The position numbers and the translations under genes were made by a program. From Marivita sp. S6314 (GTDB taxonomy: Bacteria > Pseudomonadota > Alphaproteobacteria > Rhodobacterales > Rhodobacteraceae), in NCBI RefSeq assembly GCF_023015985.1, contig NZ_JALKAO010000003.1, positions 682,001 through 746,000 on the forward strand: a stretch of 64,000 nt of DNA, given 5' to 3'. The notes beneath the pieces were generated by a model, which was not told the origin of the DNA, made no database searches, and worked only from the letters and a program-made list of their open reading frames with translations. Positions 26,654-48,184 of the stretch are shown here, piece by piece (position 1 is the stretch's first letter; every line of letters starts with the position of its first letter).

Positions 26654-26737
26654 TTGGGTCATCTCCTCCGTTGACAGACCGCCGGGTTGGCGCTGTCACG
26701 ATACGACATCTTGCGGATTTAGGGGTGGTTTTGGTGT

Positions 26738-26765
26738 CAGAGGGCGGCGGTGTCGCCGCCCTCTG
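26738..26765 (-). promoter_or_regulatory. Intercistronic 12-bp hairpin between smoE and smoF
   Basis: Perfect inverted repeat CAGAGGGCGGCG/CGCCGCCCTCTG with a 4-nt loop, 18 nt after the smoE stop. On the transcribed strand no U run follows, so it is a strong mRNA 3'-end stabiliser or partial terminator rather than a full one. Confidence 0.8.
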
Positions 26766-26782
26766 GCCTGCAAGGCAGGGAA

Positions 26783-28084: not shown

Positions 28085-28116
28085 CCAGGTTCCTCCCTTA
28101 ATTGGACGCTGGAGAC

Positions 28117-28166
28117 ATCAAACGATTAAACTTTACGCGAGTCAACAAAATTTTTACGCGCGTAAA
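28117..28166 (-). promoter_or_regulatory. smoE promoter with LacI-family operators
   Basis: The perfect palindrome TTTACGCGCGTAAA lies at 28153-28166; a second, imperfect copy (TTTACGCGAGTCAA) is 21 bp away at 28132-28145. On the minus strand the imperfect copy reads TTGACTCGCGTAAA, so its outer half is the -35 box TTGACT (28145-28140); 17 nt further is TTTGAT (28122-28117), a fair -10. Occupancy by the adjacent regulator would block RNA polymerase. The same palindrome precedes xylB. Confidence 0.8.
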
Positions 28167-28178
28167 GTTTTGTCAGAT

Positions 28179-29210: not shown

Positions 29211-29270
29211 GTCGTGTCTTTCTGTCCGTTTCCCTACCATATCGTAAACTGTGCACCCGGTTCCAACCCG

Positions 29271-30728
29271 TTACCCGGCAACCGCGTCGTAAAGCCTCCG
29301 GTAGCGGTTCCATTGCATCAGGTAGTGGTCGCGCACATCATCCCGTGGCGCGATGGTGTCGAAGGGGCCGGGCGCTGCCATGATCTCTTCAACCGGGGCC
29401 TTGCCCGACGGAATCATCGCCAGCCGCGCAGCCCCCAGTGCCGCGCCATGATCCGCCCCCGATGGCCGCTGCAATGGCACACCCAGCAAGGTGGCAAGCG
29501 TCTCGCACCAGAAGGTCGACTGCGCACCGCCCCCCAGCGCAACCAGCGATGTCAGGTTCGTGCCCGTCCCCTCAAGCGCCGCATGACAATCGGTCAGCGC
29601 ATAGGCCACCCCTTCCAGAACAGCCTGCGTCATGTCCTGCGCGGTATGGCTGATATCCAGCCCGATAAACCCGCCCCGGACCTTTGCATCGTTGTGCGGT
29701 GTCCGGTCGCCGGACAGGTAGGGCAGAAAAATCAGGTCGCTGGGTCCACCGATTCTGTCGGGCAGGGCGGACACCAGCGCTACAGCCTCCGTGCCCAGCG
29801 TCCGGGCCAGCCAATTCAGGCTGTCGGTCGCCGCAAGGATAACCCCCATCTGATACCAGCGGTCCGGCAGGGCATGGCAAAACGTGTGCACAGCAGTATC
29901 GGGATCAGGCGCATAACAATCCTTCGCCGCCAGCAGCACGCCGGATGTGCCAAGCGACACAAACCCCTGTCCGTCGCTCAAACACCCGGCGGCGCAAGCA
30001 GCCACCGCATTGTCACCACCGCCGCCAACCACATCCACCGGCCCGGACAGACCCCATTCGGACAGCAACGCCTCGCGCAATTGACCGGTAACCTGACTGC
30101 CTTCGAAAACCTGTGGCATCTGGTCCAGACGCATATGGCTGGCGTCAAGCGCGTCTGCTGACCAGTCCCGGCGCGCCACATCGAACCATGCGGTGCCCGA
30201 CGCATCGGACGCATCCGTGGCCTTGTCCCCGGTCAGCCAAAACCGCAGGTGATCCTTGGGCAGCAAGACGCTGCGCACCGCCTGAAACACCTCGGGGTCC
30301 TGCGATTTGACCCAGACCAGTTTTGGCGCAGTGAATCCCGGAAACACGATATTGCCGGTCACGCGTCGCATCATCGGGTCCGCATCCAGTCGCGCGGCCT
30401 CTGCATGCGCGCGCGTGTCGTTCCACAACATGGCGGGCCGCAAGACCTGATCCCGCGCGTCCAGCAACACGGCCCCGTGCATCTGCCCGCTAAGCCCGAT
30501 GGCGCGCACGGACCGCATCGCGTCGGGATATCTGGACCCAAGGTCGTGCATCACCGAACGGCAGGCCGTGATCCAGTCCGCCGGGTCCTGCTCGGACCAG
30601 CCGGGACGCGGATGTGCATTGGGATAGGTCGCAGAGGCCGACGCCACAACGGCCCCGTCCTCGCTCACCAGCACCGCCTTTAAGCCAGACGTCCCAAGAT
30701 CCAATCCAATAAACATCACATGTGACAT
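29271..30728 (-). CDS. xylB: Xylulokinase
   Basis: FGGY-family sugar kinase, 485 aa, phosphorylating D-xylulose, the product of D-arabinitol or xylitol oxidation by the operon's dehydrogenases. IGLDLGTSGLKAVLV at the start is the ATP phosphate motif, and SLGTSGVLLAA and VALGGGAQSTFWCETLA are later FGGY blocks. The start MSHVMFIGLDLG (ATG 30728) fits the family; a GTG at 30770 would add 14 polar residues. It is the first gene of the polyol regulon and has its own operator-promoter. Confidence 0.92.
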   Translation of the reverse strand: MSHVMFIGLDLGTSGLKAVLVSEDGAVVASASATYPNAHPRPGWSEQDPADWITACRSVMHDLGSRYPDAMRSVRAIGLSGQMHGAVLLDARDQVLRPAMLWNDTRAHAEAARLDADPMMRRVTGNIVFPGFTAPKLVWVKSQDPEVFQAVRSVLLPKDHLRFWLTGDKATDASDASGTAWFDVARRDWSADALDASHMRLDQMPQVFEGSQVTGQLREALLSEWGLSGPVDVVGGGGDNAVAACAAGCLSDGQGFVSLGTSGVLLAAKDCYAPDPDTAVHTFCHALPDRWYQMGVILAATDSLNWLARTLGTEAVALVSALPDRIGGPSDLIFLPYLSGDRTPHNDAKVRGGFIGLDISHTAQDMTQAVLEGVAYALTDCHAALEGTGTNLTSLVALGGGAQSTFWCETLATLLGVPLQRPSGADHGAALGAARLAMIPSGKAPVEEIMAAPGPFDTIAPRDDVRDHYLMQWNRYRRLYDAVAG

Positions 30729-30774
30729 CCCGATATGCCGGAGATGACAAGATCGGGATTCTCCTCTCACTGTA

Positions 30775-32839: not shown

Positions 32840-34111
32840 TCAATCCACCGGCAACCCGCTGGGCACGGTTTCGGGTGTGCCCAAAGGCCGTTCCAGCGCC
32901 GTCTTGCCCGTCAGGCTTTCCAGGAACGCGACGATATCTTCCACCTCCGCATCGCTAAGCGCGACGGGGCGGACGTCCAGAAACGCCGCCTGCCGGTCCA
33001 TCTCCAGCGCATCCGACTGGATCACCAGATCAATTTCGGTCAACCACGGAACATCCGGTAACGCCGCCTGAGCAAGCGTCCAGTCCGCGCGCGCCGTCAG
33101 CGGATCGGCCATGTGTCGCACCATGTCGCGCAAATGGGCATAGGCCCCGTTATGCCCGTAAGGGGCTGTCAACGTCACGTTGCGCAAACTGGGTGTGCGG
33201 AACCGGTAGGCGTCCTCAAGATCATCTGTCGCCCCCATCCGCCCCACATCGCGCGGGATCGGATCCCATTTGCGGGTGCGCCCCGGGCCAAAGGCGGGCA
33301 GGGCAACCGCATGGAAATCCTGATCGGTGAACAGCGGCCCGTTATGACACTGCGCGCAATTGGCCTTGCCAAAGAACAACTGCCGACCGCGCTCCGCCGC
33401 GTCTGGCAACGGTGTCCCGTGCAAAAGGAAATCATCATACGGGCTGTCGTAATTTGCCCATTCCGTCCCGATAAACGCCGCCAGCGCGTTGGCGATCTCG
33501 ACAATCGTCACCTCTTCGGGCCGTTCGATATGGTCAAACGCAGCGACAAACATCTCGCCATATTCCGGGATCGTCCGCACCCGTTTCGCAAGGATCGGCC
33601 AGCCCAGATCAATCCGGTCCGCAATCGCGCCGACAACCTCGTTCTCGCCGATATTGCCCGCCATTTCGGCCTGTGACGTCATCGGAAACACCGCCTGCGC
33701 CGCCAACAGCGAGTCCAGCCCAACAGGCAGCCACTCCTCGGCAGGGCTGTCAAACCCATTCCCGTAAATCTCCGACGGCTCCAGCCGCCCGTCATGGAAC
33801 ATCACCCGCACGTCGGTGTGCCCAAGGTTCCACAGCGCCGGTGCATTGCGCGGGATGCGCTTGCGGATCGCGTCCGGCCCGTCCCCCGGCAAACGCTCGG
33901 GTCCAAGGCCAACGCCCCCCTCACCAATGCCCAAAGACAGACCATCCGTGCCGCCCAGATCATGATGATGACACGTCCCGCACGAGATATTCTTGTTCCC
34001 GCTCAAAATCTTGTCGTAAAACAACAGTTGACCAATCCGCGCCTGATCCGCATCGAAGGCAATGAAATCCTCCGCCGTGATCGGCTGCGCCACCGCAGGC
34101 GCGCCCAGCAA
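32840..34111 (-). CDS. Di-haem cytochrome c peroxidase homologue (MauG/CCP family), start unresolved
   Basis: Periplasmic c-type cytochrome with two CxxCH sites, CGTCHHHD and CAQCHNG, and the family block LFTDQDFHAVALPAFGPGR. Such proteins reduce hydrogen peroxide or act as MauG-like oxidants. The end at 32840 is firm. The beginning is not: the frame continues upstream through GLLFALLGAPAVAQP, a good signal-peptide core and cleavage site, but no ATG, GTG or TTG precedes it in frame for over 400 nt. I give the first usable codon, TTG 34111, which would shorten the signal peptide too much. AAAGG at 34138-34134 suggests a start near 34129-34121 (ATC or CTG). It is divergent from the Sel1 gene. 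Confidence 0.82.
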   Translation of the reverse strand: MLGAPAVAQPITAEDFIAFDADQARIGQLLFYDKILSGNKNISCGTCHHHDLGGTDGLSLGIGEGGVGLGPERLPGDGPDAIRKRIPRNAPALWNLGHTDVRVMFHDGRLEPSEIYGNGFDSPAEEWLPVGLDSLLAAQAVFPMTSQAEMAGNIGENEVVGAIADRIDLGWPILAKRVRTIPEYGEMFVAAFDHIERPEEVTIVEIANALAAFIGTEWANYDSPYDDFLLHGTPLPDAAERGRQLFFGKANCAQCHNGPLFTDQDFHAVALPAFGPGRTRKWDPIPRDVGRMGATDDLEDAYRFRTPSLRNVTLTAPYGHNGAYAHLRDMVRHMADPLTARADWTLAQAALPDVPWLTEIDLVIQSDALEMDRQAAFLDVRPVALSDAEVEDIVAFLESLTGKTALERPLGTPETVPSGLPVD

Positions 34112-34129
34112 CGCAAAGAGCAGACCGAT

Positions 34130-34606
34130 ATGACCTTTCTTCGCCCGCTTGCCCTGTGCCTCTGCCTCGCCACGCCCGCGCTGGCCGACATCGAAGACGC
34201 GCGCGACCTGATGGAAGAGGGCCGCTTTGAAGAGGCCCGCGAGGCCCTCTGGCCCGCCGCCCGTTCGGGAAATGCCGAGGCCGAGGAACTCATCGGCGTC
34301 ATGTACGCGCTGGGCCTCGGGGTCGAGCAAGACTACGTCCGCGCCTTCGACTGGTACCTGCGCGCCGCCATGAAGGGTCACGCGGGCGCGCAATCGGGCA
34401 TCGGTTGGTACTACGAGACGGGCTTGGGCCTGCCCGCCCCCGATCTGGTCCGCGCGTTCCTCTGGTATCAACTCAGCACCATAGGCGGAGACCCCGACGC
34501 CGCGATCTCGGTCGAGGAAGTGGTCAAGAAAATGACGCCGGAACAAATCGAACATGCGCAAACGCTCGTGGATGACTACAGGGTCTGGCTCTACCCGTTT
34601 CGATGA
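34130..34606 (+). CDS. Exported Sel1-repeat (TPR-like) protein
   Basis: 158-aa protein with a signal peptide (MTFLRPLALCLCLATPALA) and at least three Sel1-like repeats: GNAEAEELIGVMYALGLGVEQ, YVRAFDWYLRAAMKGHAGAQ and a degenerate third. Sel1 proteins are short helical scaffolds for protein contacts, here in the periplasm. ATG 34130 has AAAGAG about 10 nt upstream and is practically back-to-back with the start of the cytochrome peroxidase gene, so the two may share a regulatory region that lies within coding sequence. Confidence 0.87.
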   Translation: MTFLRPLALCLCLATPALADIEDARDLMEEGRFEEAREALWPAARSGNAEAEELIGVMYALGLGVEQDYVRAFDWYLRAAMKGHAGAQSGIGWYYETGLGLPAPDLVRAFLWYQLSTIGGDPDAAISVEEVVKKMTPEQIEHAQTLVDDYRVWLYPFR

Positions 34607-34736: not shown

Positions 34737-36440
34737 TTGTCGAGCCTAAAAGTCCGCCAGATTCAATCCAAACTGCGAAACATGTTCGAGGAGCATCTCG
34801 ACCTAACGGGCATTTCTGAGACTGATGCGCAACGCGACGTGAAGATACTAACTCGTTGTCTGGCCGCTTTCGCAGTTTACTTATCCACAGGATGTACCAC
34901 CTCAGAGGCTGCGAATTCTGTTTGGGACGGTAGTGATGACAATGGGATCGATGCGGCATATTTCGATCCTGAAGAAAGACAGGTCGTGGTTGTCCAGTCC
35001 AAGTGGATACAATCTGGCACCGGTGAACCAGAGGCGAGTTCAGTATCGACTTTTGCAGACGGTGTGAGAGATTTAGTTGAAAACGCGATAGATAGTTTCG
35101 CGGAGCGTTTACACGATAAAGTAATGTCCATTTCCGAAGCGCTGATGCAACCCGGAACAACAATTCGCCTAGTTGTTGTATCCACTGGGTCAAGCGAACT
35201 CGCGGAACACGGAACGCGAAAACTAGATCGTCTCACTTCCGAACTGAACGATGGTGAAGACGATGGCATAGCCACGAGCACGGTCTATGGTATGGCCGAA
35301 GTCTTTGCGGGTCTGGCCTCAGACGCCAATGTCGGCCAAATCACTCTTGCGGCAACTCTTTTGGATTGGTCCAGAGTCACTCATCCTCACCGGGCGTATG
35401 TTGGTATTATCGACGGAAGCCAGTTGAAATCTTGGTGGCACAGCCACGGCAAAAGGATCGTAGCAAAGAACATTCGTTATGCATTAGGCGATACTGACGT
35501 CAACATTCAGATTAGGGCCACCGCAGAGACCGCGCCGGAAGACTTCTGGTATTTCCACAATGGTATCACGCTTATCGCGGACAAGGCCTCCCGCGCGCCT
35601 AGCGCGTCGTCTTCCCATGCGTCAGGGAACTTCGAGTTTCGTGGGGCTTCAATCGTAAACGGCGCACAAACCGTTAGCACCTTGGCAAAGGTAGAGGACG
35701 ACGAAGCTCTAGGCAGCGTACGTGTTTCAATGCGAGTTATCCTGTTGGATGAGGCACCCGAAGACTTTGGTTCCAGTGTTACAAGAACTAATAACCTTCA
35801 GAATCGAGTTGAAGGACGCGATTTTGTATCTCGGGATCCCGAGCAGGATAGAATTCGTGGGGAAATGTCGCTGGAGCAAGTTGACTACCAGATCCATCGC
35901 AGCGAGGATTTTGTACCCACCGCTCTTTCTTGTGACCTTATTGAAGTTACAACGGCGTTAGCTTGCGCGTCCTCTGAGCCGTCTCACTCCGTAGCGGCAA
36001 AAACCGGTATTGGTCGATTTTACAACGATTTGTCTCGGGCTCCGTACAAATCGATTTTTAATGCGAGAACCTCTGGGGCAAGAGCTTTCAACGCTGTTCG
36101 CGTGTTACGTGCTGTCGACGAATGGATTAGTGAACGCAAGTCGCAGGCCGATCGCCGAAGTGGGTATTCATGGGGTTTATTGGTCCACGGCAACCGAGCT
36201 ATTGCGGCTTCCGTCTTTGAAAGGCTTGGAATGGCTATGCTTGACCAACCCATTTCGGAGTTTCCGGATGACTACGAAACAATAGTTTATCGGGTCTGTG
36301 ATGAGGTTTACCCGGTCATGCTTAATCATCTTGAAACGGATTTCCCGAACAAGGCTCTAGCAGTGCTTTTCAAAGGGCCAACAAACTGTAAGGCAATATA
36401 TGAATCGGTTTCCACTCAGCTTGCTGAGGCGCGGGCCTAG
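34737..36440 (+). CDS. AIPR-family (abortive infection phage resistance) protein
   Basis: 567-aa protein. The N-terminal part has a Mrr/PD-(D/E)xK-like nuclease pattern: D72 in DDNGIDAAYFD, then VVVVQSKW giving Q87 and K89. The AIPR domain follows from about 238: KNIRYALGDTDVN, FWYFHNGITLIAD, SIVNGAQTVSTLA and NNLQNRVEGRDFVSRDPEQ. AIPR proteins are found in defence loci and are thought to act as abortive-infection nucleases. Start TTG 34737 is set by GAGGTGAT 5-8 nt upstream. The gene is visibly AT-richer, with many TTA, AGA and GTA codons unlike its neighbours, and stands alone between core genes, which suggests recent transfer. No modification enzyme, toxin or immunity gene accompanies it. 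Confidence 0.87.
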   Translation: MSSLKVRQIQSKLRNMFEEHLDLTGISETDAQRDVKILTRCLAAFAVYLSTGCTTSEAANSVWDGSDDNGIDAAYFDPEERQVVVVQSKWIQSGTGEPEASSVSTFADGVRDLVENAIDSFAERLHDKVMSISEALMQPGTTIRLVVVSTGSSELAEHGTRKLDRLTSELNDGEDDGIATSTVYGMAEVFAGLASDANVGQITLAATLLDWSRVTHPHRAYVGIIDGSQLKSWWHSHGKRIVAKNIRYALGDTDVNIQIRATAETAPEDFWYFHNGITLIADKASRAPSASSSHASGNFEFRGASIVNGAQTVSTLAKVEDDEALGSVRVSMRVILLDEAPEDFGSSVTRTNNLQNRVEGRDFVSRDPEQDRIRGEMSLEQVDYQIHRSEDFVPTALSCDLIEVTTALACASSEPSHSVAAKTGIGRFYNDLSRAPYKSIFNARTSGARAFNAVRVLRAVDEWISERKSQADRRSGYSWGLLVHGNRAIAASVFERLGMAMLDQPISEFPDDYETIVYRVCDEVYPVMLNHLETDFPNKALAVLFKGPTNCKAIYESVSTQLAEARA

Positions 36441-37179: not shown

Positions 37180-38238
37180 TTAGTTCAGGTCCGCCTCATA
37201 GGCCGCACCCAGTTCAGCCTCGGCTTCCTCGACCGCCTTGGTCAGCGCCTCGTAAATCTCAGGGCCGCCATCAACATTCTCCTGGAACCAGTCAAACACC
37301 GGCGCCGCCGCCTCGCGGAAGGCCGCCTTTTCCTCGGGCGTCGGCACATACAGATCCCCGCCACCGGCGACGAACTCTTCATAGGCCGCAATCGACTTGC
37401 GCTTGGGCGAGGCGAATGTCGCCTGCTGCAACGCATAGAACCCGTCCGCCACAACGCGGCGCAGGTCTTCGGGCAGGCCCAGGAACTTTTCGTTGTTCAT
37501 CACCCAGATCGCCCCCATGTAGGCGTGACCGTCCAGGGTGACGTACTGCAGACCCGCATCCGGGAACTTCATGCCCATGATGTCGGTGATGCCGTTCTTC
37601 GATCCGTCAACCACACCCGTCTGGAACGAGGTGAACAGCTCCGGCCAGGAAATCGGCGTCGGGGCAGCACCCAGCGCCTTCACCACTTCCTGCGGCAGGT
37701 CGGCGACCACGGTGCGGATCTTGAGACCTTCGAGGTCAGACGGCATCTGCACCCGACGTTGCGTGTTGGCAAAGTTGCGCCAGCCGCCGGTGTTGCCGAT
37801 GGTCATGATGCGGATCGTGTCGCCCGAGTCCTCCAGCGCCATGTCACGCATCGTGCGGGTGAAATCGCCCGATAGCACGTGCTCGGCCACGCGGTCATCC
37901 GACATCAGATACGGCAGGTCCAGAACCTGCACGTAAGGGAAGATGCCAGCCGCACCGCCCGAGGTTGTCACGAACACGTCGATGGACCCGTCCGAGACAC
38001 CTTGCAGACATTCCGCACCGCCCGAACACAGCTGTGTACCGATGAAGAGCTCCACCGCGATGCGCCCGTTCGAGGCGTTCTCGACATGGTTCTTGAAGAC
38101 GACGAGACCGTCATAGTCCTCGTCATTCTCGTTCGAGTTGGCTGTGGCCCGGATCGTGAAATCCTGCGCTGCAGCGGTGATGGCGCTTCCCGCCAATAGC
38201 GCGGCTGTCAGTGCCGCTGTTGTCAGACCTTTGAGCAT
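37180..38238 (-). CDS. TRAP transporter substrate-binding protein (DctP family)
   Basis: Periplasmic solute receptor, 352 aa. Signal peptide MLKGLTTAALTAALLAGSAITAAA, then FTIRATANSNENDEDYDGLVVFKNHVE and the DctP blocks LEGLKIRTVVADLPQEVVKALGA and QTGVVDGSKNGITDI. In DctP proteins an arginine of the LKIR strand clamps the ligand's acid group. GGGAGAACC precedes ATG 38238. It is the last gene of the dctQ-dctM-dctP series, followed by a strong terminator. The flanking sulfonate-type enzymes suggest sulfoquinovose or its glyceryl glycoside as ligand, an inference. Confidence 0.92.
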   Translation of the reverse strand: MLKGLTTAALTAALLAGSAITAAAQDFTIRATANSNENDEDYDGLVVFKNHVENASNGRIAVELFIGTQLCSGGAECLQGVSDGSIDVFVTTSGGAAGIFPYVQVLDLPYLMSDDRVAEHVLSGDFTRTMRDMALEDSGDTIRIMTIGNTGGWRNFANTQRRVQMPSDLEGLKIRTVVADLPQEVVKALGAAPTPISWPELFTSFQTGVVDGSKNGITDIMGMKFPDAGLQYVTLDGHAYMGAIWVMNNEKFLGLPEDLRRVVADGFYALQQATFASPKRKSIAAYEEFVAGGGDLYVPTPEEKAAFREAAAPVFDWFQENVDGGPEIYEALTKAVEEAEAELGAAYEADLN

Positions 38239-38297
38239 TTGGTTCTCCCTGTCGCTTCTATTTTGGTCAGTTACACGGGCCATGTGACCCGCAGGTG

Positions 38298-39587
38298 TCA
38301 GTCCGCAAACCCGGTGAGGCGCGGGATGGTCATGGATATTTCGGGAATGAAGGTGATGAGGAAAATCACCACGATCTCGATGGCAAGGAACGGCAGGATC
38401 GCTTTTGAGATCGTCTCCACCCGTTCGCCCGAGACCGAGGAGGCGACGAAGAGCACAAGCCCCATTGGCGGTGTGGCCAGTCCCACGGTCAGGTTCACCG
38501 ACATGATGATCGCAAAGTGAATCGGATCGACACCCAGATCGACAAAGATCGGCCCGAGGATCGGCCCCAGGATGATGATCGCAGGCCCGGCGTCGAGGAA
38601 CATGCCGACGACGAACAAAAGCAGGTTGATCAGGAACAGCAGGATCAACGGGTTCTCGCTTAGCCCCAGTACAAACTCGGCCAGAATCTCGGGCGTGTGC
38701 GACAGTGACACGACCGTCTTGAACGCCATCGCCGCCCCGACCAACAGCAGCACCGTCGCAGATGTCATCGCGGCGCGCATCAGCACATCGGGCAGGTCGC
38801 GCAGTTTCAGGGTGTTCAGCACGAACATCCCCACGATGATCGCATAGGCCACCGCCACCGCCGCTGCCTCGGTTGGCGTGAAGACACCGGCCAGAATGCC
38901 ACCGAGGATGATCACCGGGGTCATGAGTGGGAAGAACGCCTTGAGCGACGCTTGCCCGCGCTCGCCCCAGCTTGCCTTGCCGCGCGACGCCGGGAAGTCG
39001 TACCGATCCGCCTGCCAGCGCACCATCAACATCAGCCCGACACCCACAAGGATCCCCGGCACAATGCCTGCCAGGAACAGCGCGGCGACGCTTTCCCCCA
39101 TGACATAGGCGTAGATGATCATGATGCCCGAGGGTGGAATGATCGGGCCAATCACCGAAGACGCGGCCGTGATCGCGGCGGCAAATTTACGGGTGTAGCC
39201 CTCTTTCTCCATCGCCGGGATCAGCATCGACCCCAGTGCCGAGGTGTCGGCAACAGCAGAGCCTGACAAACCCGCAAACAGCATTGAAGACAACACGTTC
39301 ACATGCGCCAGACCGCCCCGGAAATGGCCCATCATGGCTTGCGAAAATTCCACCAGCCGCATCGTGATGCCGCCGCGGTTCATTAACTCGCCCGCCAGCA
39401 TGAAGAACGGGATCGCCATGAGTGGGAACGACGCCATGCCGTTATAGACGTTGCGATAGAGCAGGATCAGGTCACGTTCCTGACCGTTGAGCCAAAGCAT
39501 GATGCCCGGCGCGGCCAGCATGCCGAAAAACACCGGCAGGCCGATCATCAGGAACAGCAGAAAGAGCGGAAGGAACCAAACCAGCAT
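38298..39587 (-). CDS. TRAP transporter large permease (DctM)
   Basis: 429-aa inner-membrane protein with about twelve helices; GSAVADTSALGSMLIPAMEKEGY and GPIIPPSGIMIIYAYV are the conserved DctM loops. It carries the sodium-coupled transport path with DctQ. ATG 39587 (MLVWFLPLFLLFL) has GGAG 7 nt upstream and lies 4 nt after the dctQ stop; a longer frame overlapping dctQ is rejected. Confidence 0.94.
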   Translation of the reverse strand: MLVWFLPLFLLFLMIGLPVFFGMLAAPGIMLWLNGQERDLILLYRNVYNGMASFPLMAIPFFMLAGELMNRGGITMRLVEFSQAMMGHFRGGLAHVNVLSSMLFAGLSGSAVADTSALGSMLIPAMEKEGYTRKFAAAITAASSVIGPIIPPSGIMIIYAYVMGESVAALFLAGIVPGILVGVGLMLMVRWQADRYDFPASRGKASWGERGQASLKAFFPLMTPVIILGGILAGVFTPTEAAAVAVAYAIIVGMFVLNTLKLRDLPDVLMRAAMTSATVLLLVGAAMAFKTVVSLSHTPEILAEFVLGLSENPLILLFLINLLLFVVGMFLDAGPAIIILGPILGPIFVDLGVDPIHFAIIMSVNLTVGLATPPMGLVLFVASSVSGERVETISKAILPFLAIEIVVIFLITFIPEISMTIPRLTGFAD

Positions 39588-39591
39588 GTCG

Positions 39592-40170
39592 TCACTCCGC
39601 CTGTAATTCTGAATCGAGAAGGGATCGAAGATGCGCTTCGCCACCCAACAGCGTGATCACCGCGCGCAGGATCAATTCGATATTGACCACCAGCAATAGG
39701 CACAGACCGGTCACAAGCGACGCGATCTGCCAGCTGTTTGGCATTTTCTCCCATCCGTCAGTGGTGGGGTAATACAGGGATGCGCTTTTGAACTTGCCCG
39801 CAAGGCTGGTCATTTCGCCAAGGCCCATCTGAGCCCCGATAAACAGCACGCCGCCCGAAATCACGAGAAGGATCAGGCTCAGGATCGTTCCCGGCAGCTT
39901 TGGAAGCGCGCCCGAGATAATCTCCAACGCCACGAACCCGCCGCGCCGATAGGCCGATGGCGCAATCGCGGCCGTCATCCAGAGCATGAGAAAAATGGCC
40001 AGCTCTTCGGGCCAGGGCAGGGCGTTGCCCAGAATATAGCGGAAAAACACCTGCAGAAGGATCGCCACGACCATCAGCCCGATGGCCAGAACGGCAATCC
40101 AGCGCCCGATCCTCAGCACGATATCCAGCACAGTTTCCAATGGCCTGAGCAGCCAAAGCAATGCGGCCAT
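39592..40170 (-). CDS. TRAP transporter small permease (DctQ)
   Basis: 192-aa membrane protein with four helices and the typical segment QVFFRYILGNALPWPEELAIFLMLWM. It pairs with DctM and contacts the binding protein. GGGAGGAGG lies just before ATG 40170. It starts 78 nt after the flavin reductase stop, without an obvious promoter, so the transporter may be read through from the monooxygenase genes. Confidence 0.94.
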   Translation of the reverse strand: MAALLWLLRPLETVLDIVLRIGRWIAVLAIGLMVVAILLQVFFRYILGNALPWPEELAIFLMLWMTAAIAPSAYRRGGFVALEIISGALPKLPGTILSLILLVISGGVLFIGAQMGLGEMTSLAGKFKSASLYYPTTDGWEKMPNSWQIASLVTGLCLLLVVNIELILRAVITLLGGEAHLRSLLDSELQAE

Positions 40171-40248
40171 GACTGGCCTCCTCCCTATCCCAATCGCCCT
40201 GTTTTCCGGCGACGGACCCCGTTTTGTTATTTATGTCATCGGGGCCGG

Positions 40249-40755
40249 TTATGACGTTTGCGCAAATCCTCCGTAGCATCCTCCGTGAAACAACAGCGGC
40301 GCGCCGGGTCGGGTGCTGGCGCGGGTAACCCGGGCGATCACAACCGAATGGTCGCCGCCATCATGTTCCGCGACTTTCGTGCATTCGAACCGGCTCAGAC
40401 AGCCGTTGAGCAGTGGCACATTGTTCAGCCCGACCTCCCAATCGAACTGATCAAACGGATCGCCCTGCCGTGCGAAGGCGCTGCACATTGCAGCTTGCTC
40501 TGCGCCCATGACGTGGATCGCAAAATGATCGGCGGCCATGAAGAACGGGTAGCGGGTCGACGACTTCGCAGGCGACCACAGCACCAGCGGCGGGTCGAGC
40601 GACACGCTGGCAAAGCTGTTGGCGGTGATGCCCAAAGGCCCTGTCGACGTGTTGCATGTGATGACCGTGACCCCGGTCGCGAACTGCCCCAACGCGTCGC
40701 GAAAGGCGCGGGCATTTTCGAGCGACGGATCGAAGCTGTGGGTCATATCGGTCAT
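40249..40755 (-). CDS. Flavin reductase of a two-component monooxygenase (SmoA-like)
   Basis: 168-aa member of the flavin reductase (HpaC/DIM6-NTAB) family: FRDALGQFATGVTVITC, LGITANSFASVSLDPPLVLWSP and HFAIHVMGAEQ are its FMN-binding strands. It would supply reduced FMN to the SsuD-like monooxygenase two genes upstream. ATG 40755 has GAGGAC 6 nt upstream and lies 7 nt after the aldo-keto reductase stop, so they are co-transcribed. The match to SmoA of the sulfoquinovose monooxygenase pathway rests on the gene trio, not on this sequence alone. Confidence 0.9.
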   Translation of the reverse strand: MTDMTHSFDPSLENARAFRDALGQFATGVTVITCNTSTGPLGITANSFASVSLDPPLVLWSPAKSSTRYPFFMAADHFAIHVMGAEQAAMCSAFARQGDPFDQFDWEVGLNNVPLLNGCLSRFECTKVAEHDGGDHSVVIARVTRASTRPGAPLLFHGGCYGGFAQTS

Positions 40756-40762
40756 ATTGTCC

Positions 40763-41650
40763 TCAGGCGACTTCGCGGCCAAGGGCGTGGGTATAGAGGT
40801 CAAACCATGTCTCCCGGTCGATCTGGACCTTTGCAGCATCGCCGATGCGTTTGATGCGGTCCAGATTATTGGTGCCGAGGACAGGTAGAATGCGCGACGG
40901 ATGTGCCAAGAGCCACGCAATCGCAACAGCCGCTTCATCGACGCCTTTTGCATCGCCGATCTGCGTGAGCGCCGCGCGCAGTTTGGCGTTGTCCGCGTCA
41001 AACAGGGCACCGCCGCCCAGCGGGGACCACGCCATCGGCGGTTGGCCGTTCATCTGGTGAAACGCGATGTCGCCATTGGTGAAGGGGGCGTGATGCAGCA
41101 GGCTGATCTCGATCTGGTTGGTGACCAGCTTGGTCTTCATGCCCGATTGCAGCAGATCCCAATCATAGGGCCGGAAGTTTGACACGCCAACCGCGCGGAC
41201 TTTGCCGGATTGGACGATGTCATCCAGCGCCGCACCGGTTTCATGGTGGTCCATCAGAGGATCGGGGCGGTGGATGAGCAGCAGGTCAATGTGGTCGATC
41301 TTCATCAACCGCAGGGAATGATCGACCGACGCCAAGATATGCGCGCGGCTTGTATCGTAGTATTTAACCTTTGCGTCGGCATAGCGGCCGGCAGGGGCCA
41401 CGATATCGCATTTTGTGACAATCTCGATCCGGTTGCGCAGCTCGGGTGTGAGCGCGTTGCCCATGATTTCTTCGGCGGCGTAGCCGCCATAAATATCGGC
41501 CTGATCCATCGTGGTGATGCCCTGATCCAGGCAGGCGCTGATCTTGTTCTGGATGTGACCCGCGCTGGTGTCGGCGTCATCGCCAAGGCGCCACATGCCG
41601 TAGACAAGGCGGCTCAGGTCAAGGTGGTCGTTGAAAGTTACGCGATCCAT
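40763..41650 (-). CDS. YdhF-like aldo/keto reductase (SmoB-like)
   Basis: 295-aa aldo-keto reductase. Its start LDLSRLVYGMWRLGDDAD, DQADIYGGYAAEEIMG and MAWSPLGGGALF closely resemble SmoB, the NADPH-dependent 6-dehydroglucose reductase of the Agrobacterium sulfoquinovose monooxygenase pathway, as I remember it. The tetrad D-Y-K-H is present (DQADIYGG, TKCD, LIHRPD). It would reduce 6-oxo-glucose, formed by the monooxygenase, to glucose. It lies 109 nt after the monooxygenase stop, with a hairpin between. Confidence 0.88.
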   Translation of the reverse strand: MDRVTFNDHLDLSRLVYGMWRLGDDADTSAGHIQNKISACLDQGITTMDQADIYGGYAAEEIMGNALTPELRNRIEIVTKCDIVAPAGRYADAKVKYYDTSRAHILASVDHSLRLMKIDHIDLLLIHRPDPLMDHHETGAALDDIVQSGKVRAVGVSNFRPYDWDLLQSGMKTKLVTNQIEISLLHHAPFTNGDIAFHQMNGQPPMAWSPLGGGALFDADNAKLRAALTQIGDAKGVDEAAVAIAWLLAHPSRILPVLGTNNLDRIKRIGDAAKVQIDRETWFDLYTHALGREVA

Positions 41651-41697
41651 GCTGATCCCTTCGGCATTGGATTGGTGTTTGTGTTCATATCGCCGAA

Positions 41698-41720
41698 CAG
41701 ATTCTTCGGAGAAGAATCTG
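41698..41720 (-). terminator. Hairpin between monooxygenase and reductase genes
   Basis: CAGATTCTTC/GAAGAATCTG, 10-bp perfect stem with a GGA loop, 40 nt past the monooxygenase stop. No run of U follows on the minus strand, so it may be a partial terminator or 3'-end stabiliser that sets the ratio of the two enzymes. Confidence 0.6.
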
Positions 41721-41759
41721 GGCGCTCAAAATTAAATTCTGGTGACTTTTCGTGGCGCA

Positions 41760-42935
41760 TCAGCGACGCACCCCCGCACCAAGCGGTGTCAGTGGGGTGC
41801 TCTCGGGCACCCGACCATAGGCTTCGGGCAATGAGCACGTTTTCATATGCGGCAACACCCGGCTGCCGAAATGGCGGCATTCGTCGATATGCGGATAGCC
41901 TGACAGGATAAACGCGCGGATGCCCATTTTCTGGTACGCTTCCAGTTCGGACAGCACCTGATCGGTCGATCCAACCAAAGCCGCCCCACAGCCCGACCGC
42001 GCCCGCCCCACACCGGTCCAGAGATGCGGTTCGATGAACCCCTCCATATCCGCCAGATCCCGGTTCCTCGCCTGGTGCGACACACCCAGTGATCCGGCGT
42101 CCAACGCGCGTTCGCGGATTGTTTTGCCCTGCTCATCATCCAGCTTTGACACGATATGTTCCGCGTATTCGCGCGCCTCGGCCTCGGTGTCGCGCACGAT
42201 CACATGCACCCGCAGGCCATAATCCAGCGTCCGGTTGTAGCGTTCGGCCACCGCGTTCACGTCTGTCATGCGCTGGGCCAGCGCCTCTTTTTGCTCGGGC
42301 CACATCAGGTAGACGTCGCAATGCTGGCCGCACAGCTCCAGCGCGGCAGGGGAGTACCCGCCGAAATACAAAAGCGGCCCGCCGGTCTGGTAGGGGCGCA
42401 CGGGATCGGTGGTCAGGCCTTTGAACGTGTAGACCTCGCCTTCGTAATTGATCTCTTCCTGCGTCCACGCCTGTTTGAGGATCTCCACCACCTCGCGGGA
42501 TCGTTGGTAGCGGAACGCGCTGTCTTCTTTTTCGCCGGGAAAGTCGGACGAGATGATGTTCACCGTCAGCCGCCCTTCCAGCATGTGGTCCAGCGTCGCG
42601 ATGGTGCGGGCCAGCATGATGGGTTGCACTTCGCCGCAGCGCACGGCGGCGAGCATGTTGATGCGGTCGGTGATCGGTGCGCAGCCCGCGACGAAACTCA
42701 ATGTGTCCTGACCCACCTGATAGGACGAGGGGCACAGGATATTGCGAAAGCCCTGTGCCTCGGCCTCGCGTACGATGTCTGAACAATGCGCCCAGCTTGA
42801 GCGCAGCTTGCCGTCCGGCACACCCAGAAATTCGTAATCGTCCGAACACAATGCCGAAAACCATGACACCTCGGCCGCATCCATATCAGGAGAGGTGATG
42901 GGGACGATGGTCATAAAGGTGTCTCCGGCAGACAT
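41760..42935 (-). CDS. FMNH2-dependent sulfonate monooxygenase (SsuD/SmoC-like, LLM class)
   Basis: 391-aa luciferase-like monooxygenase. GRLTVNIISSDFPGE, LLYFGGYSPAALE, WTGVGRARSGCGAALVGS and AFILSGYPHIDECRHFG are SsuD-type signatures for binding reduced flavin and a sulfonate. With a flavin reductase and a SmoB-like reductase beside it, the best candidate reaction is oxygenolytic cleavage of sulfoquinovose to 6-oxo-glucose and sulfite. ATG 42935 has AGAGGAAATC immediately upstream; a longer frame to 42974 crosses the operator. First gene of the minus-strand operon, divergent from the GntR regulator. Confidence 0.9.
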   Translation of the reverse strand: MSAGDTFMTIVPITSPDMDAAEVSWFSALCSDDYEFLGVPDGKLRSSWAHCSDIVREAEAQGFRNILCPSSYQVGQDTLSFVAGCAPITDRINMLAAVRCGEVQPIMLARTIATLDHMLEGRLTVNIISSDFPGEKEDSAFRYQRSREVVEILKQAWTQEEINYEGEVYTFKGLTTDPVRPYQTGGPLLYFGGYSPAALELCGQHCDVYLMWPEQKEALAQRMTDVNAVAERYNRTLDYGLRVHVIVRDTEAEAREYAEHIVSKLDDEQGKTIRERALDAGSLGVSHQARNRDLADMEGFIEPHLWTGVGRARSGCGAALVGSTDQVLSELEAYQKMGIRAFILSGYPHIDECRHFGSRVLPHMKTCSLPEAYGRVPESTPLTPLGAGVRR

Positions 42936-42959
42936 GATTTCCTCTTGCGTAACACCCGC

Positions 42960-42986
42960 ATTGATGTAGATCAATAGTGTATCAAT
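42960..42986. promoter_or_regulatory. Putative GntR operator between divergent genes
   Basis: ATTGAT-GTAG-ATCAAT is a perfect palindrome at 42960-42975; a further ATCAAT half-site follows at 42981-42986, 11 bp from the first. It lies in the 65-nt gap between the monooxygenase and the regulator, 25 nt from the former start, a position from which a repressor could control both directions. Confidence 0.65.
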
Positions 42987-43000
42987 TTTTGGTGCCCGAA

Positions 43001-43702
43001 ATGCCCGACACCCACGCCCTGCCGAAATTCGTTCAGATCAGCGAGCTTCTGATCCGCGATATTCAGGCCGGGCGATTGGTTGATGGAGAGCGCCTGCCGC
43101 CCGAGCGGGACATGGCGGCGCGCCTGGGGATTTCTGTCGGCACGTTGCGCAAATCGCTGGATGAACTGACCGCGCTGGGCCTGCTGGAGCGGGTGCAGGG
43201 GTCTGGCAACTATGTGTGCGCACAAGAGGATACGCAATCGGTCTATGCGTTTTTCCGGGTGGAGCTGTTGGACGGCGGCGGGTTGCCTACGGCAGAGCTG
43301 TTGTCGGTGGATCGCCTGCCCAAGCCGGATGGCCTGCCGCAATTCGGGCGCAGTGCTGAGGGGCATCGCATCCGGCGCTTGCGGCGGCTCAATGGCGTGC
43401 CTGCGGTGCTGGAAGAGATCTGGCTTGATGGGTCGTACACCGAAGCCATTGATGCCGATGCGCTGCGGGAATCGCTGTACCTCTATTACCGCGAGTCGCT
43501 GGGGCTTTGGATCACCAAGGCCGAGGACCGGCTGGACCTGTCCACTGTTCCCGACTGGGCACCCCCTGCATTTGGCCGCGACCCGGCGCAGCCGTGTATG
43601 CGCGCCACGCGTATCAGCTATGGCCCCGATGGCAGTTCGGCCGAGGCGTCTTGGAACTGGATCAACACAGACGTCGCGACCTATGTCGCGCGCATCACCT
43701 GA
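43001..43702 (+). CDS. GntR/HutC-family transcriptional regulator
   Basis: A winged helix-turn-helix (about 10-70; LPPERDMAARLGISVGTLRKSLDEL) is followed by a UTRA-type ligand domain (about 85-233). Such regulators sense small substrates, often sugars. I start it at ATG 43001 (MPDTHALPKFVQ); the GTG at 42977 falls inside the operator. 233 aa. It is divergent from the monooxygenase operon and 9 nt before a Gfo/Idh/MocA gene, so it likely controls both. Confidence 0.9.
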   Translation: MPDTHALPKFVQISELLIRDIQAGRLVDGERLPPERDMAARLGISVGTLRKSLDELTALGLLERVQGSGNYVCAQEDTQSVYAFFRVELLDGGGLPTAELLSVDRLPKPDGLPQFGRSAEGHRIRRLRRLNGVPAVLEEIWLDGSYTEAIDADALRESLYLYYRESLGLWITKAEDRLDLSTVPDWAPPAFGRDPAQPCMRATRISYGPDGSSAEASWNWINTDVATYVARIT

Positions 43703-43711
43703 AGGACGACC

Positions 43712-44803
43712 ATGGACATCATCAATTACGGCATCATCGGATGCGGCATGATGGGGCAGGAGCACCTGCGCAATATCGCGTTGCTGGAGGGCGCGCGGGT
43801 GGCGGCGATCTATGAGCCGGACGAGATCATGGCGAACGCGGCCAAGGCGATTGCGCCGAATGCGCAGCTTTGTGCGTCGCTGGACGAGCTGCTGACCCGC
43901 GATGATCTGGACTGCCTTCTGGTCGCAAGTCCAAACCATTGCCATGTCGATGCGTTAGAGCAGATCGCGGACACCAATCCACTGCCGCTGCTGATGGAAA
44001 AACCGCTCTATACCCATCCGGTGGATATCGCGCGGGTCGAGGCGATCGCGGGCAGTTATGCGTCACCGATCTGGGTTGCGATGGAATACCGCTACATGCC
44101 GCCGATCCAGACGCTGATTGACGAGGTGCAGCGCGCGACCGGTGGGGTGAAGATGCTCACCATCCGCGAACACCGCTTTCCGTTCCTGCCCAAGGTTGGC
44201 GACTGGAACCGGTTCAACCGCAACACCGGGGGCACGCTGGTTGAGAAATGTTGTCATTTTTTTGACCTGATGCGCCTGATCCTGCGCTCTGATCCGGTGC
44301 GGATTTCGGCCAGCGCGGGGCAGGAGGTCAACCATCTGGACGAAACCTATGGTGGCGAGGTGCCGGACATTTGGGACAGCGGATATGTCATGATCGACTT
44401 TGCCAATGGCGCGCGAGCGATGCTGGAACTGTGTATGTACGCCGAAGGCGCGCGCTATCAAGAGGAGATCAGCGCCGTCGGTCCGCACGGTAAGATTGAG
44501 GCATTTGTGCCGGGGCCGGGTCGGTTCTGGCCCACGCATCTTGGAGTGCCGCCGGTTGCGCAGGTGATTGTCAGCCCGCGCCACCCCAAGGGACCGCAAG
44601 CGGTCGAGATCCCCGTTGACCCCACCCTTCTGGATGCCGGTGATCATAACGGGTCGACCTTTTACCAGCACGTCAAGTTCCTTGATTTGGTGCGGAAAGG
44701 CGGCGTTCCGGAGGTCACACTCGGGGATGGCGCCTGGGCGGTTCGCATGGGGATGGCGGCGCAAAATTCTGCGCGAACTCAGAGTGTCGTTGCCACGTTT
44801 TGA
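43712..44803 (+). CDS. Gfo/Idh/MocA-family NAD(P)-binding protein, candidate sulfoquinovosidase
   Basis: 363-aa protein with Rossmann motif YGIIGCGMMGQEHLRNI, the EKPLYTHP motif of the family and a C-terminal alpha/beta domain with RNTGGTLVEKCCHFFDLMR. Most relatives are sugar dehydrogenases. A branch of this fold has been described as NAD+-dependent sulfoquinovosidases (CAZy GH188, from memory) that free sulfoquinovose from its glycosides; the gene neighbours here fit that role and no GH31 sulfoquinovosidase is present. Which of the two it is cannot be settled from sequence alone. AAGGACG lies just upstream of the ATG. Confidence 0.85.
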   Translation: MDIINYGIIGCGMMGQEHLRNIALLEGARVAAIYEPDEIMANAAKAIAPNAQLCASLDELLTRDDLDCLLVASPNHCHVDALEQIADTNPLPLLMEKPLYTHPVDIARVEAIAGSYASPIWVAMEYRYMPPIQTLIDEVQRATGGVKMLTIREHRFPFLPKVGDWNRFNRNTGGTLVEKCCHFFDLMRLILRSDPVRISASAGQEVNHLDETYGGEVPDIWDSGYVMIDFANGARAMLELCMYAEGARYQEEISAVGPHGKIEAFVPGPGRFWPTHLGVPPVAQVIVSPRHPKGPQAVEIPVDPTLLDAGDHNGSTFYQHVKFLDLVRKGGVPEVTLGDGAWAVRMGMAAQNSARTQSVVATF

Positions 44804-44971: not shown

Positions 44972-47900
44972 ATGAATGCGATTAATTTCGTTGTCCGTAC
45001 CCCTGTGGGTGCGATCGAGCGTGGTGTAGTTGGTACGACTGATCAGGGCTTCCTGGTTGACGCTTCTGGCGGCCGCGAAATCTCTTTGAACCTTCATCGA
45101 ACCGATATGCGCGGCTATGATCGCGCCGGGAACGATCTGCAGCTGACGCTGGCCGATGGCCGGGTGATCGTGCTGGAAGACTATTTCGAATCCGGGGGCG
45201 CCAGTCGCTTGTTCCTGAGCACCGATGGCGTGCTGAGCGAAGTGACCTTTGCCCAGGGGGATGGCGGGGTTCTTTACGCGCAATACGGGGATGTGTCGGC
45301 CTGGGGCAAATGGAGCCCGGACGACGCGCTGATTTTCTTTGACCGCGCCGAAGTGCTGGCAGCGGACATGGTTGTCGCGGATGGCGACGGCGGCGTATCT
45401 ATGCTGGGTGCCGGGCTGCTGGCGGGGGGTAGCTTGTTGCCGCTTCTGGGTGCCGGCGCTGCGGTGGCAACCGGTGCGGCGGTTCTCGGCGGCGATGGTG
45501 ACGGCGGCGGTGGCGGCGGGAGCCTTGTTGGTTCCGGCGGCGACGGCGGTGGTCCCAAGACCCCCACGGTGGACGACGCGGAATACGTCATCGGCGGTGA
45601 CGGCCTGACAGAAGAGGACCGCAGCGTTCTGGTTAGCGGGACCGCGAACGAGGGCGACATGGTTGTCGTCACGATTGGCGACAAGACACAGACAACGACC
45701 ACAGGGTCGGACGGAAACTGGGACGTCGTCTTTGAAGGCCCGAACTTCCCGGCGGACGGGGAATACGTGGCTGACGTGGTCATCACCGGCGAGGTTGATG
45801 TCACGCTCACCGGGCCGACGATTGTTATCGATACAACGCCGCCGCCTGTTGTCATCACCAGCGGCACAACCGCATCCGGCGACATTGTCACGGAAAGCGA
45901 ATTTGACGCGGGCGTGACCATCACCGGCACCACGGAAATCGGGGCCTCGGTTGTTCTGATCGCGGGTGGCGTCAGCCATGTCTGCGACGTGGATGCGCAG
46001 GGCAACTGGAGCGTGACGCTGTCTAGCTCGACCTTCGAGCGGGGCGAATACATTTCCGATATTTCGGTTGTCGCGACAGACAGTTTTGGCAACTCCACCA
46101 CCATCACCGACGGTGTTGAGATTGACACCGTGTCCGGTGTGACAGTCAACACAACCATCATCGAGACCGACGGCATCATCAATGCCGACGAGCGCACCGA
46201 TGGCGTTGAAATCACAGGCACAACCGACATTGGATCGTCCGTGGTTGTCGAGATGAACGGCTTTACCCGTCAGGCAACAGTCGATGCGAATGGCAACTGG
46301 ACGGTGACCTTCAGCGCGACGGAAATTCCGCTGGGTGAACAAGACCTTACCATCAATGCGGCCGCGACGGACGAAGTGGGCAACATCAGCACCACATCGG
46401 GCGATGTGCGCCTTGATACGCTGGTGCGCAACTTTGACATCACCAGCCAGGCGGGTGGCGCAGATGGCGTTGTGAACGCCGAAGAAGCGTCGCAGGGCAT
46501 GACCGTCACCGGCACAACCGAGATTGGCGCAAGCGTGACTGTGACGCTGGGTGGCGTGTCTCGTGAGGCCAGCGTTGACGCGTCGGGCAACTGGACCGTG
46601 ACTTACCTGTCCGGTGAACTGCCATCCGGTGAGCAATCCGCAATCCTGAGCGCAAGTTCGACCGATATCGCGGGCAACACGGCTGTTGAAACGCGCACGG
46701 TGATCTTTGACACCGATGCAGGCCTGCTGACGATCAGCCCCGAACCCATCGAAATGGATGACGTCGTCAACGAGGCGGAAGCGTCCGACGGCGTGATCAT
46801 CACCGGGACATCGACCCCCAATGCGATTGTGGATGTCACGTTGGACGGTGTGTCCAAGACGGTTCAGACCGATGGCTTTGGCGTCTGGCGCGCGAACTAC
46901 ATGGCGGGCGAAATCCGTCCCGGCGAATACGAAGCGCAGATCACGGCCTACACCGTGGATGCGGCGGGCAATGAACTGACCCGGACCGATACGGTCATGG
47001 TCGACACGTTTGTGCGCAACTTCGCCGTCAGCGCGAACCCGGTGACAGCCGACAACATCGTCAACGATGCCGAGCAAAACGGCGGTGTGACCCTCACGGG
47101 CACAACCGAACCGGGTGGATCGGTGACCGTGGTTGTCGAAGGCATCACGCGGATTGCGAATGTGGATGCGGCGGGCAACTGGACCGTCAGCTACTCGGGT
47201 CTTGAGATCCCGGACGGCACCTACACCACCACGGCCCAGATCAGCACCGAAGATCGTGCGGGCAACACGGCGACCACCTCCAAGACTTTCCAGGTCGACA
47301 CCGAGGTTGTGCCGCTGACCAGCACCAGCACACCCGGCGGCAGCGACGGTGTTGTTGGCGAGGCCGAAAGCGCGCAAGGCTTTACGTTGACCGGTCAGGT
47401 TGAGCAGGGCTCCAGCGTCACCGTCACCATCGGCGGGCAGGCGATGACGGCACAGGTCAGCGCAAGCGGCGCATGGTCGGTGGCGGTTCCATCAAGCGTG
47501 ATCCCGGTTGTGAATGGCGAAAACGTGTCGATTGCCATTTCGGCGACAGACGCGGCGGGCAACACCAAGTCGATCACCGAAACGATGGTGGTGGACAACG
47601 TGGCCCCGGATGCACCGGACATGACGGCGATCACCCGCGAGGGCACGCAGTCGGTGCGCGGTATCTTCCTTGAAAGCTCGGACCACGATATTGCGATTGA
47701 TAAGGTCAGCGGATCGGGTGGTTTCGGCCAGCCGCAATCCGTGGGCTTCAGCGAATTTGAAAATCCGAACTCGGGTGAAACGCAGTACACGTTCAATCAG
47801 GTTGTGCCGGACGGGTCCGACCTTGTGGTCACCGCAACAGACAGCGCGGGTAACATGACCGGGACGTATATCGTGGTCGACAACCCGAACACCAGCCAGT

Positions 47901-48184
47901 CCAACGTGACATTGGCGGGCAATATCGGCGGTCACGAGATCAAGGCCATTGATCTTAACTTCACCGAGGAAGCCACTCTGACGATCACCGAAGCGCAGAT
48001 CGTCGCGCTGGCAGGCGAGACGAACGAAGTTCGGATTTCCGGCAACTCGGACGACGCGGTGCGCATCACGGGTGCAACGCGCACAGGCAGCCGTGTTGAG
48101 GATGGCGACAACTACAACGTCTATGATCTGGGCGATGCAACCGTTCTGATCGATGACGAAATCACAAACGTAACGACGATTTAA
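44972..48184 (+). CDS. BapA-type large repetitive adhesin, type I secretion substrate
   Basis: 1070-aa acidic surface protein. Residues 1-140 form a BapA prefix-like domain (ISLNLHRTDMRGYDRAGNDL, GRVIVLEDYF), followed by a hydrophobic Gly/Ala stretch (143-175) and a glycine linker (176-195). Seven Ig-like repeats of about 98 residues span roughly 197-885, each with a GVTITGTTEIGASVTV-like strand, NGNWTVT and an ATD-AGN strand. The tail (885-1070) lacks obvious RTX nonapeptides and ends VLIDDEITNVTTI, a plausible type I export signal. TolC, ABC and HlyD genes follow directly. It likely mediates attachment or biofilm. Upstream 44804-44971 is AT-rich and probably its promoter. Confidence 0.9.
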   Translation: MNAINFVVRTPVGAIERGVVGTTDQGFLVDASGGREISLNLHRTDMRGYDRAGNDLQLTLADGRVIVLEDYFESGGASRLFLSTDGVLSEVTFAQGDGGVLYAQYGDVSAWGKWSPDDALIFFDRAEVLAADMVVADGDGGVSMLGAGLLAGGSLLPLLGAGAAVATGAAVLGGDGDGGGGGGSLVGSGGDGGGPKTPTVDDAEYVIGGDGLTEEDRSVLVSGTANEGDMVVVTIGDKTQTTTTGSDGNWDVVFEGPNFPADGEYVADVVITGEVDVTLTGPTIVIDTTPPPVVITSGTTASGDIVTESEFDAGVTITGTTEIGASVVLIAGGVSHVCDVDAQGNWSVTLSSSTFERGEYISDISVVATDSFGNSTTITDGVEIDTVSGVTVNTTIIETDGIINADERTDGVEITGTTDIGSSVVVEMNGFTRQATVDANGNWTVTFSATEIPLGEQDLTINAAATDEVGNISTTSGDVRLDTLVRNFDITSQAGGADGVVNAEEASQGMTVTGTTEIGASVTVTLGGVSREASVDASGNWTVTYLSGELPSGEQSAILSASSTDIAGNTAVETRTVIFDTDAGLLTISPEPIEMDDVVNEAEASDGVIITGTSTPNAIVDVTLDGVSKTVQTDGFGVWRANYMAGEIRPGEYEAQITAYTVDAAGNELTRTDTVMVDTFVRNFAVSANPVTADNIVNDAEQNGGVTLTGTTEPGGSVTVVVEGITRIANVDAAGNWTVSYSGLEIPDGTYTTTAQISTEDRAGNTATTSKTFQVDTEVVPLTSTSTPGGSDGVVGEAESAQGFTLTGQVEQGSSVTVTIGGQAMTAQVSASGAWSVAVPSSVIPVVNGENVSIAISATDAAGNTKSITETMVVDNVAPDAPDMTAITREGTQSVRGIFLESSDHDIAIDKVSGSGGFGQPQSVGFSEFENPNSGETQYTFNQVVPDGSDLVVTATDSAGNMTGTYIVVDNPNTSQSNVTLAGNIGGHEIKAIDLNFTEEATLTITEAQIVALAGETNEVRISGNSDDAVRITGATRTGSRVEDGDNYNVYDLGDATVLIDDEITNVTTI

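Follow-up and report, generated by a model that had tools for sequence, protein, structure and literature searches.

In Agrobacterium, the sulfoquinovose (SQ) monooxygenase (sulfo-SMO) pathway is laid out as SmoA, SmoB and SmoC together with GH31. SQ is a sugar of plants and algae that carries sulfur. Its production is put at ~10 billion tons a year (PMC10755693). According to the reports consulted, SQ is taken up via ATP-binding cassette (ABC) importers (PMC9594981, PMC8873060, PMC12421959), the Agrobacterium sulfo-SMO system among them (PMC9594981, PMC8873060), and in E. coli via YihO (PMC8873060). Here we describe a locus in a stretch of 64,000 nucleotides from the marine bacterium Marivita sp. 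S6314 (Rhodobacteraceae; contig NZ_JALKAO010000003.1, positions 682,001 to 746,000), called the window below, in which homologs of the three Smo enzymes are followed by the genes of a tripartite ATP-independent periplasmic (TRAP) transporter. In our reading the locus is very probably a Roseobacter-group cluster for the sulfolytic use of SQ that is fed by this TRAP importer.

Related clusters have been described from other bacteria. SqgA founds the new family GH188 of NAD-dependent sulfoquinovosidases, and the residues that hold SQ are listed in the text of Kaur et al. 2023 (PMC10755693). In the same text GH188 is reported as near-universal in the sulfo-SMO clusters of marine Roseobacters, and as present in SMO, sulfoglycolytic Embden-Meyerhof-Parnas (sulfo-EMP) and other SQ pathway clusters. 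Hybrid sulfo-EMP gene sets occur among Proteobacteria, as stated in the review PMC12890257.

Results

The catabolic enzymes resemble SmoC, SmoB and SmoA

An earlier note, made from the letters of the window, had named eight genes as a sulfo-SMO operon with a TRAP importer and two divergent genes. All eight were present in that order between positions 37180 and 44803 with intact reading frames, and their products carried the expected Pfam domains (Bac_luciferase, Aldo_ket_red, Flavin_Reduct, DctQ, DctM, DctP, UTRA with GntR, and GFO_IDH_MocA). The likely starts lie slightly off those of the mechanically called open reading frames for SmoC (ATG 42914), SmoA (ATG 40755), DctP (ATG 38238) and GntR (ATG 43001, the first GTG being at 42977).

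The first gene on the minus strand encodes the predicted FMNH2-dependent SQ monooxygenase SmoC (384 aa; 41760–42914). Its best matches in the PDB are 7olf (690 bits, 76.8% identity over 383 residues) and 7oh2 (685 bits, 76.0%), which we take to be the published SmoC structures, as their PDB molecule names are generic. The next match, and the best of the SsuD/MsuD-like structures, scores 195 bits and is an entry for an alkanesulfonate monooxygenase. Additionally, the NCBIfam SsuD model scores 235 bits on this protein and does not reach its cut-off of 518. Because of this gap between 690 and 195 bits and the SsuD score below cut-off, the monooxygenase is, by scores rather than by a tree, SmoC-like and not SsuD- or MsuD-like. 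A grouping with methanesulfonate or alkanesulfonate enzymes, named in the earlier note as a result that would speak against its assignment, was likewise judged by score and not by tree, and it was not found.

SmoB and SmoA share the operon with SmoC. The aldo-keto reductase SmoB (295 aa; 40763–41650, minus), a predicted 6-dehydroglucose reductase, scores 417 bits against 7bby/7bbz, presumably the SmoB structures since their molecule names are also generic, compared with 212 bits against YdhF (1og6). The flavin reductase SmoA (168 aa; 40249–40755, minus) is assigned by its Flavin_Reduct domain and a match of 151 bits to 4xhy. Thus the matches of SmoC to 7olf and of SmoB to 7bby support the sulfo-SMO assignment well.

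All three TRAP subunits follow on the same strand: DctQ, the small membrane subunit (39592–40170), DctM, the large membrane subunit (38298–39644; Pfam DctM 403 bits), and DctP, the solute-binding protein (37180–38238), which has a signal peptide by eye and is the proposed binder of SQ or SQ-glycerol. The terminator that had been reported after dctP is a strong terminator-like hairpin on the minus strand (37157–37134) with a 10-bp stem and a T run.

The divergent Gfo/Idh/MocA gene encodes a predicted GH188 sulfoquinovosidase

The earlier note had read the divergent Gfo/Idh/MocA gene (43712–44803, plus) without a glycosidase role, and this did not hold. Against 8zn9 the protein scores 543 bits, and against two SqgA structures it scores 356 bits (8qc3, 49% identity) and 353 bits (8qc2). 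Eight of the nine published SQ-holding residues align with identical residues in the window protein (K97, Y126, R155, L159, K161, E178, H182 and H312), and these include the whole sulfonate triad of ArSqgA; the ninth, Glu163 of ArSqgA, has no alignment at the same offset. All eight are kept in each of 102 GH188 sequences from related loci (82 SMO, 18 sulfo-EMP, 2 other), a set from which we removed rows that were shorter than 330 aa or contained a stop, and in which a few genomes are sampled twice (e.g. L006/L108, L013/L109). By sequence and active site, the gene product is thus a GH188 NAD-dependent sulfoquinovosidase of the SqgA type. While the absence of GH31 stands, in that no GH31 domain occurs among the eight locus proteins, the implied absence of any glycosidase does not. 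The protein starts straight at the Rossmann fold with no signal peptide by eye, and therefore SQ glycosides would need to be imported whole.

The same TRAP adjoins two kinds of SQ-type cluster

A genome scan for the cluster returned at least 80 loci, mainly from the Roseobacter group with some from SAR116 and other Alphaproteobacteria. Among those of the 80 with at least 6 kb downstream of SmoC, SmoB follows on the same strand in 65/66, SmoA in 56/66 and DctP in 51/66; among those with at least 2.5 kb upstream, GH188 is divergent from SmoC in 71/72 and GntR in 70/72. We also searched 295 genomes of the family; at the chosen cut-offs, 125 had SmoC, 102 had a DctP ortholog and 145 had GH188. The SmoC count used below is 124, as G046 (36% identity, SsuD-like) was removed; for G216, whose match is split, one piece was used. 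In 115 of these 124 genomes, no more than 12 kb separate GH188 from SmoC.

The DctP ortholog has SmoC within 12 kb in 72 of the 102 genomes and on another contig in 4; in 26 SmoC is absent. Eighteen of these 26 have a putative hybrid sulfo-EMP cluster with GH188 adjoining the same TRAP. Five others retain SmoB, SmoA or GH188/GntR beside the TRAP (L092, L093, L095, L098, L102), and three (L096, L103, L106) have neither Smo nor sulfo-EMP genes within the stretch examined. A Rieske oxygenase gene was seen close to SmoB in L102. Tateyamaria omphalii and Primorskyibacter flagellatus are among the isolates with an SMO-TRAP cluster.

The 18 loci resemble L099, at which alone the sulfo-EMP-type domains were assigned by Pfam; the others were identified by similarity to L099. 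Relatives of its isomerase (L-fucose-isomerase C-terminal domain), PfkB kinase and GH188 occur in all 18, of its DeoC/LacD aldolase in 16, of its DeoR regulator in 14 and of its aldehyde dehydrogenase in 10. We provisionally regard these loci as hybrid sulfo-EMP clusters, in keeping with the review PMC12890257.

On a tree of DctP sequences the SMO and EMP labels are mixed, and well-supported branches require the SMO label to change at least six times and the EMP label at least five times. These changes may be gains or losses, bootstrap support is not fully settled, and one locus with a DctP shorter than 320 aa was left out. At class level, SmoC was found in 9 of 367 genomes, one of which (G639) lacks this DctP, and DctP in 12, of which 7 lie outside the family. 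The seven outside-family loci include two of the SMO-TRAP kind (L131, L135) and two of the EMP-TRAP kind (L133, L134). A distant DctP (49%) in L136, also outside the family, is near sulfo-EMP-type genes with no GH188 match. For the last two of the seven, L120 (on a 3-kb contig) and L132, neither cluster lies in the stretch covered, and in both genomes SmoC is on another contig.

SQ or an SQ glycoside would be the only obvious cargo common to these two unrelated SQ-type back ends. Because they share it, the TRAP is most likely an SQ importer, as inferred from linkage. The comparison therefore suggests a tie between the TRAP and SQ that is independent of the pathway.

Features of DctP

Two arginines, R154 and R175, show no variation across 34 aligned DctP sequences and may be the usual anion anchors of DctP, whose positions are known from SiaP. 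The cysteines C71 and C77 are invariant in the same alignment. In a Foldseek search with the DctP model, apo IseP (8t9t, isethionate-binding, 21% identity) ranks first by E-value with other DctPs close behind, and 4pfr has a higher TM-score than 8t9t. This ranking says little about the ligand.

A tandem repeat lies between SmoC and GntR

The GntR/UTRA regulator gene (43001–43702, plus; Pfam GntR and UTRA) is divergent from SmoC. The spacer between them carries the tandem repeat TTGAT-N6-TTGAT (42965–42985, minus), and the core of this repeat recurs in 76 of 85 SMO spacers, the window included, compared with a mean of 0.02 in shuffled sequence. The set of 85 samples a few genomes twice (e.g. 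L006/L108, L013/L109). A longer form occurs in 36 of the 85 and, with up to 3 mismatches, has one site genome-wide, which is the SmoC-GntR spacer. The repeat is a putative and likely local operator for GntR, although some of the motif may belong to a promoter.

A di-haem protein gene and a Sel1 gene are linked to the TRAP

Beyond dctP lie a gene for a di-haem protein of the cytochrome c peroxidase (CCP)/MauG family (32840–34129, minus; Pfam CCP_MauG, two CxxCH motifs) and its divergent partner, a Sel1-repeat protein gene (34130–34606, plus; Pfam Sel1). Between dctP and this conserved pair is an AIPR-domain gene (PF10592, abortive-infection type; 34737–36440), possibly an insertion.

Where DctP is present, the pair comes after it in the same orientation in 36/55 loci of the SMO scan, 15/18 sulfo-EMP loci and 3/8 other loci. 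It is absent from 14, 3 and 3 of these, respectively, despite at least 5 kb covered, and 5, 0 and 2 had less room. Six of the seven outside-family loci also have the pair after DctP. In the family, a di-haem ortholog is found in 83 of the 295 genomes, 77 of which also have DctP, and lies within 8 kb of DctP in 64 of the 77. SmoC is ~3 kb away in four of the six ortholog genomes without DctP. The line between orthologs and paralogs was set at an identity gap near 51%, with G017 (51%) placed among the paralogs. Among the matches listed, no paralog (44–51%) lies near DctP in any of the 37 genomes that have both.

The di-haem protein scores below the cut-off of the NCBIfam MauG model for tryptophan tryptophylquinone (TTQ) biosynthesis (107 vs 444 bits) and reaches the cut-off of no listed NCBIfam model, the nearest being TIGR03981 (242 vs 340). 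No in-frame ATG, GTG or TTG occurs closely 5' of the apparent signal peptide. The idea that the peroxidase axial Met is kept was not borne out, as the column holds His in 44 of 53 sequences and Met in 9. Among the searchable open-access papers that name both 'sulfoquinovose' and 'cytochrome c peroxidase', none has a title on bacterial use of SQ. Peroxide protection and periplasmic modification are guesses at the role of this protein. A PhyH-family dioxygenase gene was seen near the TRAP and di-haem genes in L096 (7994–8758), L099, L103 and L104 (8913–9605).

Other genes of the window

Directly downstream of GH188, positions 44972–48184 encode an adhesin-like protein of 1070 aa with repeated Ig-like units. 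On the minus strand, sugar ABC transporter genes, a LacI-type regulator and a xylulokinase-like gene occupy 25787–30770. Both regions were read from translations.

Discussion

The genes of the locus, their similarity to known enzymes, the kept residues and the linkage are direct observations, from which the following scheme is proposed. Periplasmic DctP would capture SQ or SQ-glycerol for import by DctQM. In the cytoplasm, GH188 would release SQ from SQ-glycerol, using NAD+ as a catalytic cofactor, as the published residues suggest. By analogy with close relatives, SmoA would provide FMNH2, SmoC would convert SQ to 6-dehydroglucose and sulfite, and SmoB would reduce 6-dehydroglucose to glucose. 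The GntR/UTRA regulator probably governs both directions via the tandem TTGAT repeats.

Like the Agrobacterium sulfo-SMO system, the window has homologs of SmoC, SmoB and SmoA in one operon; it differs in having a TRAP in place of an ABC importer, GH188 in place of GH31, and a GntR regulator. That a TRAP takes the place of the ABC importer, as the earlier note proposed, is well supported by the recurrent linkage of DctP to SmoC. With the Roseobacter sulfo-SMO clusters of Kaur et al. 2023 (PMC10755693) the window has GH188 in common, whereas the Results text of that paper, its figures and supplement aside, makes no mention of a TRAP importer or of a di-haem/Sel1 pair. The hybrid sulfo-EMP clusters have the same TRAP and GH188 as the window in 18 family loci and the pair in 15 of these 18, although their other catabolic enzymes (isomerase, PfkB kinase, DeoC/LacD aldolase and aldehyde dehydrogenase) and, in 14 of 18, a DeoR-type regulator set them apart. 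TRAP importers for small sulfonates, such as isethionate (IseP, 8t9t) and 2,3-dihydroxypropanesulfonate (DHPS; entry 24gc), belong to the DctP family as does the window protein. However, IseP has only ~21% identity to the window DctP, for which a C6 sulfosugar or its glycoside is proposed as cargo, and the invariant C71 and C77 are a further difference on the window side.

Several results weigh against the proposed reading of the locus. This DctP ortholog is missing from 48 of the 124 SmoC genomes in the family, and the TRAP is therefore not obligatory. The sulfo-EMP label is provisional: for the aldolase of L099, 8tnf and tagatose-bisphosphate aldolases are nearer relatives than YihT, and no PDB match was found for the L099 isomerase. 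Additionally, the DctP model is only moderate (mean pLDDT, the predicted local distance difference test score, of 76), and the solved DctPs are distant, at 17–25% identity among the 50 listed Foldseek matches.

In the strongest of the alternatives, the catabolic genes are those of a sulfo-SMO pathway while the TRAP is a mere neighbour that imports another acid. The SmoC genomes without this DctP would fit such an arrangement, as would the 3 of 102 DctP genomes in which Smo and sulfo-EMP genes are both absent from the stretch examined. We nevertheless consider it unlikely, given that the same DctP accompanies SQ-type clusters of two kinds, that the labels change repeatedly on the DctP tree, and that even the distant DctPs of L107 and L136 (47–49%) are near sulfo-EMP-type genes. 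Some SMO loci may have a replacement for the TRAP: among 15 TRAP-less loci with 6 kb or more beyond SmoC, five (L006, L007, L013, L056, L061) carry an alpha-glucoside-type ABC operon immediately downstream of SmoC. This operon may itself be a mere neighbour, because it comes with a GH13 gene of its own and, in L061, with a LacI regulator.

It is somewhat less probable still that a related sulfosugar, such as sulfofucose or a modified SQ glycoside, is the substrate in place of SQ. SmoC is 77%, not 100%, identical to the studied enzymes, and sulfofucose is used by a Paracoccus according to PMC12421959, but eight of the nine GH188 residues from published SQ complexes are kept. Finally, an operon of the SsuD/MsuD type, which would draw its sulfur from a simple alkanesulfonate or from methanesulfonate, was rejected as very improbable: SmoC shares a luciferase-like superfamily with those enzymes and does match the SsuD model, but its 235 bits are far below the cut-off of 518, its score of 690 bits to 7olf far exceeds the 195 to the best SsuD/MsuD-like structure, and the linked SmoB and GH188 suit a sugar.

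With the locus thus read as an SQ cluster fed by a TRAP, the pathway is not new, because GH188 in Roseobacter sulfo-SMO clusters is already published (PMC10755693). The cluster type is also common in Roseobacters, and for these reasons the locus is less surprising than the earlier note held. The TRAP importer is the fresh part. We found no TRAP importer tied to SQ in the searchable open-access SQ papers, a search outside which key papers on Roseobacter SQ and SMO fall, and the novelty of TRAP import of SQ is not certain.

A wider proposal, which we put forward only tentatively, is that this TRAP clade is dedicated to the import of sulfosugars and serves as an interchangeable front end. Alphaproteobacteria would swap the back end between sulfo-SMO and hybrid sulfo-EMP while keeping the TRAP and GH188, and the di-haem/Sel1 pair would be an unrecognised periplasmic step or protection in sulfosugar use. 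If functional, the pair would be an unstudied part of that use. SQ import by marine bacteria is little described, and a TRAP common to two apparently unrelated SQ-type pathways would provide a testable handle on marine SQ uptake, as well as a marker that is independent of the catabolic genes.

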